Shown: piece after piece, positions 1 to 10,972 of the stretch
Numbering within the stretch: the stretch's first letter is position 1
Layout of the letters: every line of letters begins with the position of its first letter
Source of the DNA: an uncultured Lachnospiraceae bacterium
GTDB taxonomy: Bacteria; Bacillota; Clostridia; Lachnospirales; Lachnospiraceae
Direction of reading: 5' to 3'
Assembly (NCBI GenBank): GCA_902782815.1
Contig: CACZOS010000222.1
Location: 1-13,284, forward strand
DNA: 13,284 nucleotides
Program-made: the position numbers and the translations under genes
Notes under the pieces: model-generated
The model's database searches: none
Told to the model about the DNA's origin: nothing
Seen by the model: the letters and a program-made list of their open reading frames with translations, nothing else

Positions 1-199
1 CAATGAGATTTCCACAGTCTTCCACTATATCCCTCTTCACAGCGCTCCGGCAGGCAAAAAGTACGGACGTTTCCATGGTGAGGATGTCTATACCACCCGG
101 GAGAGCGAGCGTCTGACCCGCCTTCCCCTCTATTATGGACTCAGTGCGGAAAAAGTGCTTTTTGTATGCGATAAGATCAAAGAATTCTATGGCTTCTGA
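1..199 (+). CDS. wecE: dTDP-4-amino-4,6-dideoxygalactose transaminase (WecE/RffA-type), C-terminal end
   Basis: This is the last 65 codons of a gene that begins before the window; the frame runs from base 2 to a TGA at 197-199. The family (DegT/DnrJ/EryC1/StrS, PLP-dependent) moves an amino group from glutamate to the C4 keto group of dTDP-4-keto-6-deoxyglucose, giving dTDP-Fuc4N in the cytoplasm. The visible part carries the characteristic end of WecE proteins: FHYIPLHSAPAGKKYGRFHG, then a TTRESERLTRLPLYYGL-like stretch. The active-site lysine and PLP-binding regions lie outside the window, so activity cannot be judged. Its substrate is the product of RmlA and RmlB, both encoded on the opposite strand further along. 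It precedes a GT2 glycosyltransferase and an ATP-grasp ligase, which suggests an amino-sugar module. Other sugar aminotransferases of the same fold are possible, but the tail matches WecE well. Confidence 0.85.
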   Translation, partial: NEISTVFHYIPLHSAPAGKKYGRFHGEDVYTTRESERLTRLPLYYGLSAEKVLFVCDKIKEFYGF

Positions 200-6604: not shown

Positions 6605-7462
6605 CTATCTGAGTTTCAGCAGATACTGTCCGTAATTGGTCATTTTTAAGGATTCTCCGATCTCATGGACACGGTCAATATCGATGAATCCTTGTCTCCA
6701 GGCGATCTCTTCCAGACAGCCGACATAAGATCCGGACCGCTGCAGGGCTTTGATAGTCTCCGCCGCATCCAGCACACTGTCAGCAGATCCAGCATCCATC
6801 CAGGTAAGCCCCCTTTCAAAAGGATAGACATGGAGCTGACCTCTCCGGAGATACTCCAGGTTGACATCCGTGATCTCCAGCTCTCCCCTCTTGGAAGGTT
6901 TCAGGCTGCGGGCGATGTTTACCACCTGGTTATCATAGAAATAGAGTCCGGGGATGATATAATTGGATCTGGGATTTGCAGGTTTTTCTTCGATAGATAC
7001 CGCATTTCCCTCATCATCAAACTCTACCACACCAAAGGGTCTGGGATCATCCACATAATAGCCGAAAACCGCTGCCCCGGCAGGCTGCTCCTTTACTTTC
7101 AGAAGCACCTCGTCCATATTGTGGCTGTGGAAAATATTGTCTCCCAGGACCAGACATACACTCTCATCCTCTATAAAGTCATGACCGATCACCAGAGCAT
7201 CCGCGATACCCCTGGCCACTTTCTGGACAGCATATTCAATCTTGATACCCAGATGACTTCCGTCCCCCAGAAGTTCCCCGAAGGGTCTTTCCTCACCCGG
7301 AGGGATGATCACCAGGATTTCCCGGATACCGGCCTGGATCAGAGTGGAAATAGGATAGTAGATCATGGGTTTGTCGTAAACCGGCAGGAGGGGTTTACAA
7401 ACCGGTTTGGTCATAGGGTACAGGCGGGTACCTCTCCCGGCTGCAAGAACAATTCCTTTCAT
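6605..7462 (-). CDS. rmlA: Glucose-1-phosphate thymidylyltransferase-like protein, divergent copy
   Basis: This 285-residue nucleotidyltransferase starts at MKGIVLAAGR, where AAGGAG lies 6 bases upstream; a 12-codon upstream extension has no ribosome site. The family joins glucose-1-phosphate to dTTP to give dTDP-glucose. Intact elements include GRGTRLYP (9-16), Lys23, YDKPMIYYP (29-37), the metal-binding Asp108 in LGDNIF, and EEKP (158-161). It departs from canonical RmlA at two places. The residue after Lys23 is Pro instead of Gln, and the base-recognition loop after Gln80 reads KVARGIAD where the second copy in this operon has PSPDGLAQ. It is the last gene of the operon, 61 bp after rmlC. 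It may be a paralogue with changed nucleotide or sugar preference, or a functional second RmlA; sequence alone does not settle it. Confidence 0.86.
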   Translation of the reverse strand: MKGIVLAAGRGTRLYPMTKPVCKPLLPVYDKPMIYYPISTLIQAGIREILVIIPPGEERPFGELLGDGSHLGIKIEYAVQKVARGIADALVIGHDFIEDESVCLVLGDNIFHSHNMDEVLLKVKEQPAGAAVFGYYVDDPRPFGVVEFDDEGNAVSIEEKPANPRSNYIIPGLYFYDNQVVNIARSLKPSKRGELEITDVNLEYLRRGQLHVYPFERGLTWMDAGSADSVLDAAETIKALQRSGSYVGCLEEIAWRQGFIDIDRVHEIGESLKMTNYGQYLLKLR

Positions 7463-7523: not shown

Positions 7524-8117
7524 TCATTTTTCAGGAAGTCTGCCCCATTTCTGATCCTTCTCAGAGAGGATAAGGGGAGTCCCGTCAGTCAAATGATATC
7601 CCTCTGCCCGGGGACTGCCGGGATACTGTCCCATAATTTCCGGCCATTCTATGCCGATCCCGGGATCATTCCAGGCGATTCCTCCTTCGTCCCCCGGGTG
7701 ATAGAAGTCGGAACATTTATAGCAGAACTCCGCTTCATCCGACAAGACCAGAAAACCATGGGCGAACCCTTCACTGATGTAAAACTGCCTGTTATTCTGT
7801 TCAGAGAGGAGGCATCCGTACCATTTCCCGTAAGTTTCACTCTCTTTCCGCAGATCCACCGCCACATCAAAGACTGATCCTTTGATCACCCGTACAAGCT
7901 TGGCCTGGGGATGTCTTATCTGGAAGTGAAGTCCCCGCAGAACGCCTTTGACACTCATGGACTGATTGTCCTGGACAAAGCTCATCCGAATTCCTGCCTC
8001 TTCCATATCTCTTTGATTATAGGTCTCCATAAAATATCCCCGACCATCCCTGTGGACGGTGGGTTCGATGATATAGAGCCCCTCGATCGGGCATGTCTGT
8101 ACTTTGATCTGTCCCAT
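7524..8117 (-). CDS. rmlC: dTDP-4-dehydrorhamnose 3,5-epimerase
   Basis: The 197-residue cupin-fold enzyme epimerises C3 and C5 of dTDP-4-keto-6-deoxyglucose, giving dTDP-4-keto-L-rhamnose. The conserved core is present: DGRGYFMETY (24-33), VLRGLHFQ (59-66) with catalytic His64, Lys73 in QAKLVRV, GFAHGF (117-122) with His120, and Tyr133 in FCYKCSDFY. Length is slightly above the usual 180-190. The start at ATG 8115-8117 has AAAGGAG about 10 bases upstream. It lies 23 bp after rmlD and 61 bp before the divergent rmlA, in an operon with uniform orientation. It appears fully functional, although its substrate depends on the interrupted rmlB. Confidence 0.95.
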   Translation of the reverse strand: MGQIKVQTCPIEGLYIIEPTVHRDGRGYFMETYNQRDMEEAGIRMSFVQDNQSMSVKGVLRGLHFQIRHPQAKLVRVIKGSVFDVAVDLRKESETYGKWYGCLLSEQNNRQFYISEGFAHGFLVLSDEAEFCYKCSDFYHPGDEGGIAWNDPGIGIEWPEIMGQYPGSPRAEGYHLTDGTPLILSEKDQKWGRLPEK

Positions 8118-8140: not shown

Positions 8141-9001
8141 TCAATTATTCTCACCCAGCCGGACAAGATAGCGTTTCAAGGCATCCTTCCAGTCCGGAAG
8201 GGGGGCAAAGCCCTCAGCTGTAATCTTCTTCCTGTTCATTCGGCTGTTCTCAGGCCTCTTTGCCTTGGCGGCATAGTCCGCGGAAGATACGGGAACCACC
8301 TCCATATCAAGACCGGCCTGACGAAAGATCTCACAGGCAAAATCATACCAGCTGATATAATCTCCTTCGTTAGTTACATGGTAGATTCCGTAACGGTCAG
8401 TCAGAATCATATCCACCAGGAGTCTGGCCAGATCTTCCGTGTAGGTGGGTGTTCCGAACTGGTCATTAACAACAGTGATCCTTCTCGTTTTCTCATAAAG
8501 AGACAACATGGTTTTTACGAAATTTTTACCGTTTATCCCGAACACCCAGGCTATGCGCACGATAAAATACCGGTCCAGCAAGGACCTTACCGCTTCCTCC
8601 CCCTGATACTTGGTCAGACCATAGACATTCAAAGGTTTGGCAACCGGATCATCAGGTTCCCAGGGTCTTTGACCCTGGCCGTCAAAGACATAATCGGTGG
8701 AAATATACATCATGGGACATCCGATCTTACGGCAGGCCCGGGCTACATTTTCCGTTCCTTCGGCATTGACCTTCCTGCATGCTTCCTCCGCGTCCTCCGC
8801 AGCATCCACCGCAGTCCATGCCGCACAGTGGATCACCGCATCCGGATCATAGCCGGTGATCACCCGGTCCGTCATCTCCCTGTCCGTGATATCCATCTGC
8901 GGAAGATCCAGACCGATCACTTCCAGATTCCGTCGCCTAAGCTCCGCCGATACATCATATCCCAGCTGTCCGTCAACACCTGTTACTAATACTTTCATCA
9001 T
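8141..9001 (-). CDS. rmlD: dTDP-4-dehydrorhamnose reductase
   Basis: This 286-residue extended short-chain dehydrogenase reduces dTDP-4-keto-L-rhamnose to dTDP-L-rhamnose with NAD(P)H. The nucleotide loop is GVDGQLG (8-14), STDYVF (101-106) holds the catalytic Thr, and YGLTK (127-131) is the YxxxK pair. TVVNDQFGTPTYTEDLA (177-192) is typical of RmlD. AAAGGG precedes two consecutive ATG codons at 8996-9001; the first is chosen, although the second gives the better spacing and would remove one residue. It follows the rmlB stop at 9011 by 9 bp, so it is tightly coupled to rmlB, and 23 bp separate it from rmlC. A polar effect of premature termination in rmlB on this gene is conceivable. Confidence 0.95.
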   Translation of the reverse strand: MMKVLVTGVDGQLGYDVSAELRRRNLEVIGLDLPQMDITDREMTDRVITGYDPDAVIHCAAWTAVDAAEDAEEACRKVNAEGTENVARACRKIGCPMMYISTDYVFDGQGQRPWEPDDPVAKPLNVYGLTKYQGEEAVRSLLDRYFIVRIAWVFGINGKNFVKTMLSLYEKTRRITVVNDQFGTPTYTEDLARLLVDMILTDRYGIYHVTNEGDYISWYDFACEIFRQAGLDMEVVPVSSADYAAKAKRPENSRMNRKKITAEGFAPLPDWKDALKRYLVRLGENN

Positions 9002-9010
9002 TTGAACCCT

Positions 9011-10048
9011 TTATTCTTCTGCGCCACGCAGACGGTCTCCGTACATCTTCTCAAAATAATCCTGATATTCACCGGAAATGATCCGCTCCCACCATTCCCT
9101 GTTGTCAAGATACCAGGAGATGGTTTTCTGTATGCCGTCTTTAAACATGGTCTACTGAAGCCAGCCCAGCTCACGGTGGATCTTCTCCGGGTCAATGGCA
9201 TAACGCATATCATGACCCTTCCGGTCCTCCACATGGGTAATCAGAGATTCCGGCTTGCCCAGGGCATGGCAGATCAGCTTTACAATATCGATGTTTTTCA
9301 TCTCATTGTGGCCTCCCACATTGTAGACCTCTCCTGCTTTTCCCTGACGAATGATCAGGTCGATGGCCTTGCAGTGATCCTCCACATAGAGCCAGTCCCT
9401 GACATTCAGACCCTCGCCGTAGACCGGCAGGGGTTTATCTGCCAGGGCATTGGCGATCATCAGAGGGATCAGCTTCTCCGGGAACTGATAGGGTCCGTAA
9501 TTATTGGAGCAGCGGGATATGCTGGTGGGAAGCCCGAAGGTACGGTGATAGGCATTGACCAGCAGGTCTGCTCCTGCTTTGGAGGAACTGTAGGGGCTGC
9601 TTGTCTTCAGGGGAGTATCCTCCGTGAAGAAAAGATCCGGCCGGTCCAGAGGAAGGTCACCGTAGACCTCATCAGTGGATACCTGATGGTATCTCTTTAC
9701 CCCGTACTTCCGGCTGGCATCCATCAGAACCTGGGTCCCTATGATATTGGTCTGAAGAAAGATCCCGGGGTCTTCGATGGACCGGTCCACATGGCTTTCG
9801 GCGGCAAAATTAACCACTATATCAGGCTTCTCTTCCTCAAACAGTCTGAAGACGGCCTCCCTGTCACAAATATCCATCCTCTCAAAACGGAAATCGGGAC
9901 AGTCCATGGCTTCTTTCAGGGTCTCCATGTTCCCGGCATAGGTCAGTTTGTCAATGCAGACGATCCGGTCTTCCGGATGGTCTTTAAGTTCCAGATATAC
10001 AAAATTAGCTCCGATAAAACCGGCTCCGCCGGTAACAATAATTGTCAT
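9011..10048 (-). pseudogene. rmlB: dTDP-glucose 4,6-dehydratase interrupted by an in-frame TAG at codon 299
   Basis: RmlB converts dTDP-glucose to dTDP-4-keto-6-deoxyglucose with bound NAD. The first 298 residues (9155-10048) are intact: GGAGFIG (7-13), AAESHVDRS (82-90), STDEVYG (124-130) with the catalytic Thr-Asp-Glu, and YSSSK (153-157). After LGWLQ there is TAG at 9152-9154. The same frame then continues as TMFKDGIQKTISWYLDN and on to TAA at 9011-9013, which is the normal RmlB C terminus. The total frame of 345 residues matches the usual family length, so this is a nonsense change without a frameshift. Ancestral codons were probably CAG or CCG followed by GAG. The lost 46 residues form the end of the substrate-binding domain. 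An ATG at 9146-9148 could restart translation of the tail, but has no evident ribosome site. GAGGA lies just before the ATG at 10046-10048. The open part is 9152-10048. Confidence 0.88.
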
Positions 10049-10087
10049 ATTCTTCCTCTTTCCTGCAGATCACGGGCCGGCGGGATA

Positions 10088-10972
10088 TCAGTCCAGATAT
10101 TTCCCATCCAGCACATCTTTGAGATACTGGCCGTACTGATTATTTTTCATGGCCTCATAGGTATTGGCAAGCTCCTCCCTGCCGATCCAGCCGTTCATGT
10201 AACCCAGCTCCTCCAGACAGGCAATCTTACGGTGAGAATGCTGCTCGAAAGTCTTGACGAAATTGGTAGCGTCGACCAGACTTTCATGGGTTCCGGTATC
10301 CAGCCAGGTAAAGCCCCTGCCCAGAAGTTCCACATGAAGTTCATCACTCTCCAGATAAATGCGGTTAAGATCTGTGATCTCCAGTTCACCGCGGGCAGAA
10401 GGAGCCAGGTTTTTGGCATAATTCACCACCCGGTTATCATAGAAATAAAGACCGGTCACACAGTAGTTGCTCTTTGGTCTGGCAGGCTTCTCCTCAATGG
10501 AAATCGCCTTGCCGTCCTTAAACTCCACTATGCCGAAACGTTCCGGATCATCCACATAGTATCCGAAAACAGTGGCTCCGTGTTCTTCCTCGGCCCGGGC
10601 CACGGCAGCCCGCAGTCTCTTTTTCAGACCATGACCGTTGAAAATGTTATCCCCCAGGACCATAGCTACCGAATCCTCTCCGATGAAGTCCTCCCCGATG
10701 ATAAATGCCTGGGCCAGTCCATCGGGACTGGGCTGAACGGCATAGCTTAAGTTCATCCCAAACTGATGTCCGTCCCCCAGAAGAGCCTCGAACCTTGGGG
10801 TATCATCAGGAGTCGAGATCAGCAGAACATCGCGGATCCCGGCCATCATCATCACGCTCATGGGATAATAGATCATGGGCTTATCATAAACGGGTAACAA
10901 TTGTTTGCTGGTGACTTTTGTAAGCGGATAGAGTCTGGTCCCCGATCCGCCCGCAAGAATAATCCCTTTCAT
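10088..10972 (-). CDS. rmlA: Glucose-1-phosphate thymidylyltransferase, canonical copy
   Basis: The 294-residue enzyme makes dTDP-glucose from dTTP and glucose-1-phosphate, the first step to dTDP-rhamnose. Every hallmark is present: [12 protein letters not shown] (8-19), [16 protein letters not shown] (22-37), [11 protein letters not shown] (80-90, thymine-binding loop), LGDNIF (106-111) with the metal-binding Asp, [11 protein letters not shown] in the sugar-binding region, and a C-terminal NNQYGQYL. The start is MKGIILAGG at 10970-10972, with AAGGAG about 8 bases upstream; the 27 in-frame codons further upstream fall in the structured leader and look non-coding. It is the first gene of the operon, 39 bp before rmlB, and is driven by the promoter at 11054-11082. 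Confidence 0.95.

Follow-up and report, generated by a model that had tools for sequence, protein, structure and literature searches.

The rmlB gene of an uncultured Lachnospiraceae bacterium is interrupted by an in-frame TAG at positions 9152-9154 of the minus strand, 298 codons beyond its ATG start at 10048, after which the same frame continues through 46 sense codons of a normal RmlB C terminus to a TAA at 9011-9013 (minus strand). A stop at this position is absent from all 61 RmlB sequences with which the gene was compared, and coding sequence is conserved beyond it—the pattern by which a pseudogene is recognised. To judge from these comparisons of sequence, there is about an even chance that the stop marks a recent, private loss allele of rmlB that arose by a nonsense change. 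The event looks like one of an ordinary kind, with no new reading of the genetic code.

Materials and Methods

The window, that is the whole stretch of 13,284 nucleotides that was analysed, is an entire contig. The draft genome to which it belongs comprises 458 contigs and 2,352,747 bases, with a completeness of 84.62% and a contamination of 5.5%. The genome collections used for comparison hold one genome per species.

The set of 61 RmlB sequences was made up of 27 of the 30 loci L006-L035 and 34 of a further 80 loci. From the former, the window itself (L006), a locus cut by a contig end (L019) and a locus broken by N (L033) were dropped; the latter were hand-picked among matches of 76-85% identity, with some in that range and all weaker matches left out. 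Substitutions in the C-terminal tail were counted between the window and 13 congener sequences. Proteins from 1.2 Mb of the 3.5 Mb genome of the congener G005 were aligned to a sample of 385,973 bases from this genome, made up of 60 of its 458 contigs.

Results

The rml locus

The minus strand of the window carries rmlA, rmlB, rmlD and rmlC, together with a second, divergent rmlA (Table 1). An earlier note on this DNA had described all neighbouring genes as intact, which holds for the rml genes, all of them open, and fails for the wecE-type gene, of which only a C-terminal piece stands at the contig end.

Table 1. Features of the rml locus and of the interrupted rmlB gene (positions in the window).
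Feature	Position	Strand	Basis
rmlB open frame as found (dTDP-glucose 4,6-dehydratase, C-terminally truncated)	9152..10048	-	TIGR01181, 448 bits
TAG found in none of the other RmlB sequences compared	9152..9154	-	0/61 others
RmlB C-terminal tail, 46 sense codons and TAA; absent from the product if UAG terminates	9011..9151	-	alignment
Codon 298, Gln (Pro in 60/61 relatives); neighbouring departure	9155..9157	-	alignment
Candidate restart ATG, no evident Shine-Dalgarno sequence	9146..9148	-	sequence reading
rmlA, open, upstream of rmlB (start at the ATG of MKGIILAGG)	10088..10972	-	TIGR01207
rmlD, open, downstream of rmlB	8141..9001	-	TIGR01214
rmlC, open	7524..8117	-	TIGR01221
Second rmlA, divergent, TAG-ended (start at the ATG of MKGIVLAAG)	6605..7462	-	profile match
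wecE-type transaminase, C-terminal piece truncated at the contig edge	2..199	+	TIGR02379, profile 313-375

The wecE-type gene seems to be split between two contigs: profile positions 313-375 of TIGR02379 match at window 2-190, within the piece at 2-199, and positions 1-265 match at the end of contig C55 (9030-9821), which leaves about 47 intervening profile positions uncovered. Contig C55 and the window contig are probably neighbours in the genome. Since a wecE-type gene lies across the contig edge, the RmlB intermediate would feed two branches; this bears out what had been proposed for the RmlB product, albeit with that gene at a contig edge in a draft from which about 15% of the genome is missing.

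The rml operon is flanked by its two rmlA genes, 6605-7462 and 10088-10972. In most of the printed congener and family loci, the rmlA beside rmlB is 79-94% identical to the rmlA at 10088-10972 and only 48-56% identical to that at 6605-7462, which marks the latter as a divergent paralogue. Where seen in congeners L007-L021, RmlD is only 65-73% identical to the product of the gene at 8141-9001, compared with 88-94% for RmlB and 84-94% for RmlA; rmlD may therefore have been replaced, or may be evolving faster. A foreign origin of the contig was not favoured, given the 88-94% identity of RmlB to most congeners having the gene and a G+C content of 0.42-0.53 along the window. Identity of RmlB is lower in some congeners, at 78-79% in three (G005, G017, G018) and 61% in one (G003).

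A second intact rmlB, which would remove the functional consequence of the stop, was not found in this 84.6% complete draft. The next-best match of the RmlB search was only 33% identical, and we interpret the other matches as relatives of GalE or RmlD type.

The truncated frame and the missing tail

The central claims of the earlier note—an amber codon in frame 46 codons short of the natural end, no indel, and a gene that codes for RmlB—all hold. The 298-residue form scored 448.3 bits against TIGR01181, for which the cut-off is 365.1, and the tail aligned without a gap to the C termini of relatives. Like the RmlB family (TIGR01181; solved structures 1kep, 1g1a and 1bxk), the protein matches along its residues to 297 and retains, in its truncated form, the catalytic TDE and YxxxK motifs tabled in PMC8987622 (here STDEVYGD and YSSSK). 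Unlike the family, it ends 46 residues short, the aligned relatives (of which a few are truncated at contig ends) having 328-354 residues; its match to TIGR01181 stops at profile position 295 of 321, so the C-terminal domain is incomplete. In the portion of PMC8987622 covered here, the RmlB tail is not mentioned, and one passage places the Rossmann domain at the C terminus, which we take for a slip.

The lost residues correspond to two helices (302-315 and 317-336) in the structure that AlphaFold predicts for an intact relative, the last residues having low confidence. Solved RmlB chains likewise extend well past the stop, the match to 1g1a ending at residue 317 of 361. Mean pLDDT was 70.2 for the truncated window protein and 79.0 for the intact relative, these being two different proteins modelled with the same 24 sequences in a shallow alignment. 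Confidence differed most in the C-terminal domain, starting near residue 211: ten-residue blocks between 211 and 298 gave 33-87 for the truncated form and 62-96 for the intact relative. The models suggest that the tail braces the C-terminal domain, and truncated RmlB is probably inactive or unstable.

Could the two parts act as separate chains? A 298-residue body and a 45-residue tail, the latter restarted at ATG 9146-9148, would then have to reassemble into an enzyme. Only one codon lies between the TAG and this ATG, a spacing that allows a ribosome to restart, and the frame is open to the TAA. However, a Shine-Dalgarno sequence is not evident ahead of the ATG, which weakens the restart suggested in the earlier note; moreover, the tail consists of just two helices, matches no Pfam family when searched alone and is split off in none of the 61 relatives. 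We hold a two-chain enzyme to be very improbable.

A stop private to this genome

In the column occupied by the TAG, all 61 relatives carry a charged or polar residue (the same residue in 57), and the tail beyond this column shows good conservation. Across 23 congener genomes, the RmlB match spans the tail in 17, with no stop at the TAG position. In G018, one listed TAG falls at the end of the match and was taken for the natural end of the gene; in G019, rmlB lies in two contig pieces; and G003 has a more distant RmlB (59% identical over a longer query, 61% in the other search). Three congeners (G002, G010 and G015) gave RmlB-like matches of only 31-33% identity, which we counted in favour of rmlB being dispensable, though these genomes are drafts that are 84-87% complete.

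Two further irregular copies of rmlB were seen among the genomes compared. That of G007 (locus L033, contig C155, 20656-21744) contains runs of 10 N and, just after one of them, within the gene body, a TAA in frame; its tail is intact, and this TAA is probably an assembly fault. A genome of the same family, G033, has a second rmlB match on contig C58 (4774-5757), split into one piece covering residues 1-193 and another covering 188-297. Each piece is listed with a 421-residue open frame, and an intact copy is found on another contig; the second match is perhaps a copy with an insertion.

Two adjacent odd codons

A total of 217 alignment columns are near-invariant, with one residue in at least 93% of sequences. 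The window departs from the consensus at three of them: column 41, column 298 (the Gln codon before the stop) and column 299 (the stop itself). By our own arithmetic, the chance of an adjacent pair given three departures in 217 columns is roughly 3%. Among the other 61 sequences, adjacent departures occur only in L034, L035, L076 and L077, each of which has at least eight departures in total. With codon 298 odd as well, an ancestral CAG GAG pair, from which the earlier note had derived the stop by a single change, would be unlike the relatives. The pair at 298 and 299 may reflect one clustered event, a local consensus error or chance.

These adjacent departures, with one other in 217 conserved columns, are the main reason for keeping high the explanation by an error of the draft assembly, in which the stop would stem from miscalled bases where coverage is low, or from merging several strains into one consensus, and living cells would have an intact rmlB. 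This explanation is a serious one, short of an even chance. It is favoured by the fragmented and incomplete state of the draft described above, by a stop private to this genome amid neighbouring rml genes that are open, and by the draft rmlB of G007, where a stop adjoining an assembly gap shows that such faults can put stops in rmlB. Against it, the site is well inside the contig with no run of N near, and no other fault of this kind turned up in the portion of the genome that was sampled. The alignment of G005 proteins gave 89 non-overlapping homologous segments (26,187 codons), with stops in five; four of these stops lay no more than 16 residues from an alignment end, and rmlB alone had a mid-gene stop with conserved sequence on both sides. 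As rmlB is the finding under test, the fair background is 0 of the 88 other segments. A simple test found no frameshift-like breaks in the 89 segments. A de novo scan for interrupted genes by codon statistics was discarded: on inspection by eye, shadow frames or adjoining genes accounted for most of its 18 candidates, and rmlB itself was not among them.

Evolution of the tail

Between the window and L011, the tail differs at 17.5 of 19.7 synonymous and 5.5 of 100.3 nonsynonymous sites; the corresponding counts for L020, the most distant sequence, are 15.5 of 20.0 and 21.5 of 100. Synonymous differences are thus near saturation, with nonsynonymous differences fewer. The nonsynonymous rate was higher in the tail than in the body in 13 of 13 comparisons, which looked like decay, but the same is seen in intact congeners: the window had a mean tail-to-body ratio of nonsynonymous rates of 2.1, and a control that set 14 congener sequences against one another gave mean ratios of 1.5 to 2.8. 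Relaxed selection on the tail was accordingly rejected, and a ratio within the congener range, with no sign of relaxed selection, argues that the stop is recent. On these substitution counts, the tail appears to be constrained at the protein level, either until recently or still. Such constraint fits a recent mutation, an assembly error and readthrough alike, and so separates none of them.

UAG as an ordinary stop

Five other genes of the window that had been cited as TAG-ended (ATP-grasp, capK-like, AbrB-like, the divergent rmlA and a glycerophosphotransferase) were confirmed to be so. In the sampled contigs, 74 genes aligned with the congener's protein to within 12 residues of its C terminus: 31 ended in TGA, 23 in TAA and 13 in TAG, and 7 were undecided. 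UAG is therefore in use as an ordinary stop, contrary to what recoding would entail. The release factor 1 gene, prfA, is present (544 bits) and, together with the 13 TAG-ended genes, puts a general reassignment of UAG out of consideration. PylS was not found: the single PF01409 match in the 84.6% complete genome (344.7 bits) we read as PheS, and pyrrolysine was rejected as far as a draft of that completeness allows. The view in the earlier note that UAG is not generally reassigned thus stands.

A suppressor tRNA with a CUA anticodon had also been offered as an option. The genome gave only 15 tRNA matches, a plainly incomplete set, from which ARAGORN called 14 distinct tRNAs, none of them with a CUA anticodon; for the fifteenth match (L050), at a contig end, no anticodon was called. 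Nor did CUA occur among 11 tRNAs in 386 kb (an overlapping set) or among 24 tRNAs in 1.2 Mb of G005.

If UAG were read through at a useful rate—by a leaky stop, a suppressor tRNA or a special residue—full-length RmlB would still be made. The tail does evolve like the tails of intact relatives, and a suppressor tRNA could have been missed in so small a set of matches, one of which lacks an anticodon. Yet neither a CUA anticodon nor PylS was seen in the draft, UAG ends 13 of the 74 aligned genes, none of the 61 relatives has a stop here, and conservation of the tail is just as well accounted for by a recent mutation. Readthrough is on balance improbable, and readthrough and a split enzyme, even taken together, are unlikely. 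It is distinctly improbable that short and long forms of RmlB, made by a leaky UAG or by restart at the next ATG, set the deoxysugar supply for the cell surface.

Discussion

The recent loss of rmlB that we favour would proceed by familiar steps. A strain-level nonsense change in the rml operon would truncate RmlB after residue 298, with UAG read by release factor 1 as usual and the last 46 residues lost. The missing part would comprise the two helices that end the C-terminal substrate domain, leaving an enzyme that is probably inactive; as no second RmlB was seen, neither dTDP-rhamnose nor the WecE-type amino sugar would be made. Known loss alleles of genes for surface polysaccharides have an outcome of the same kind. 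For such a loss, we infer a real base, an inactive product and an affected cell surface.

That bacteria can alter their surface by losing rml genes is known. In the parts of the published reports covered here, phage selection on Pseudomonas aeruginosa yielded mutants in each of the four rml genes, with nonsense and frameshift changes among them (PMC11450229); a Salmonella double mutant of both dTDP-glucose dehydratase genes was viable, with altered surface and shape (PMC12136496); and pneumococcal serotype 33E is defined by a nonsense mutation in the capsule gene wciE (PMC12534171). The present locus resembles the rml loss alleles and the wciE allele of 33E in that one enzyme gene is cut or changed in an otherwise complete polysaccharide locus. 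It differs from the former in that the P. aeruginosa rmlB mutant characterised in that report is a missense mutant, whereas here the change is nonsense and comes from one draft genome's sequence alone, and from the latter in that the 33E gene codes for a glycosyltransferase. Literature searches requiring all terms returned no paper on premature stops in metagenome assemblies or on truncated dTDP-glucose dehydratases.

The phage-selected rml mutations of P. aeruginosa, with their nonsense and frameshift alleles, lend some plausibility to a standing strain polymorphism or a switch that turns a surface sugar on and off, under selection by phage for example; the earlier note had likewise raised a phase-like loss of a surface antigen. 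The site itself, however, has no repeats able to flip the frame reversibly: direct or inverted repeats of at least 12 bases were absent from 8900-9400, and the only tandem repeat in 8500-10100 (8859-8887) lies inside rmlD, with none in rmlB. No reversible switch is therefore apparent, and we consider this the least probable of the explanations weighed here.

Recoded stop codons, as in pyrrolysine systems and amber-reassigned lineages, share with this gene a UAG in frame, with conserved coding sequence beyond it. Here, by contrast, PylS was not found, release factor 1 is present, UAG serves as an ordinary stop and only one gene in the sample compared is affected.

General understanding would be unchanged whichever explanation is right. 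If the stop is an error, it would serve as a warning against reading a single stop in a draft genome as recoding. A genuine stop would mean that the lineage behind this draft has recently and simultaneously lost two branches of dTDP-sugar synthesis for its surface polysaccharide, a strain-level change of the cell surface.
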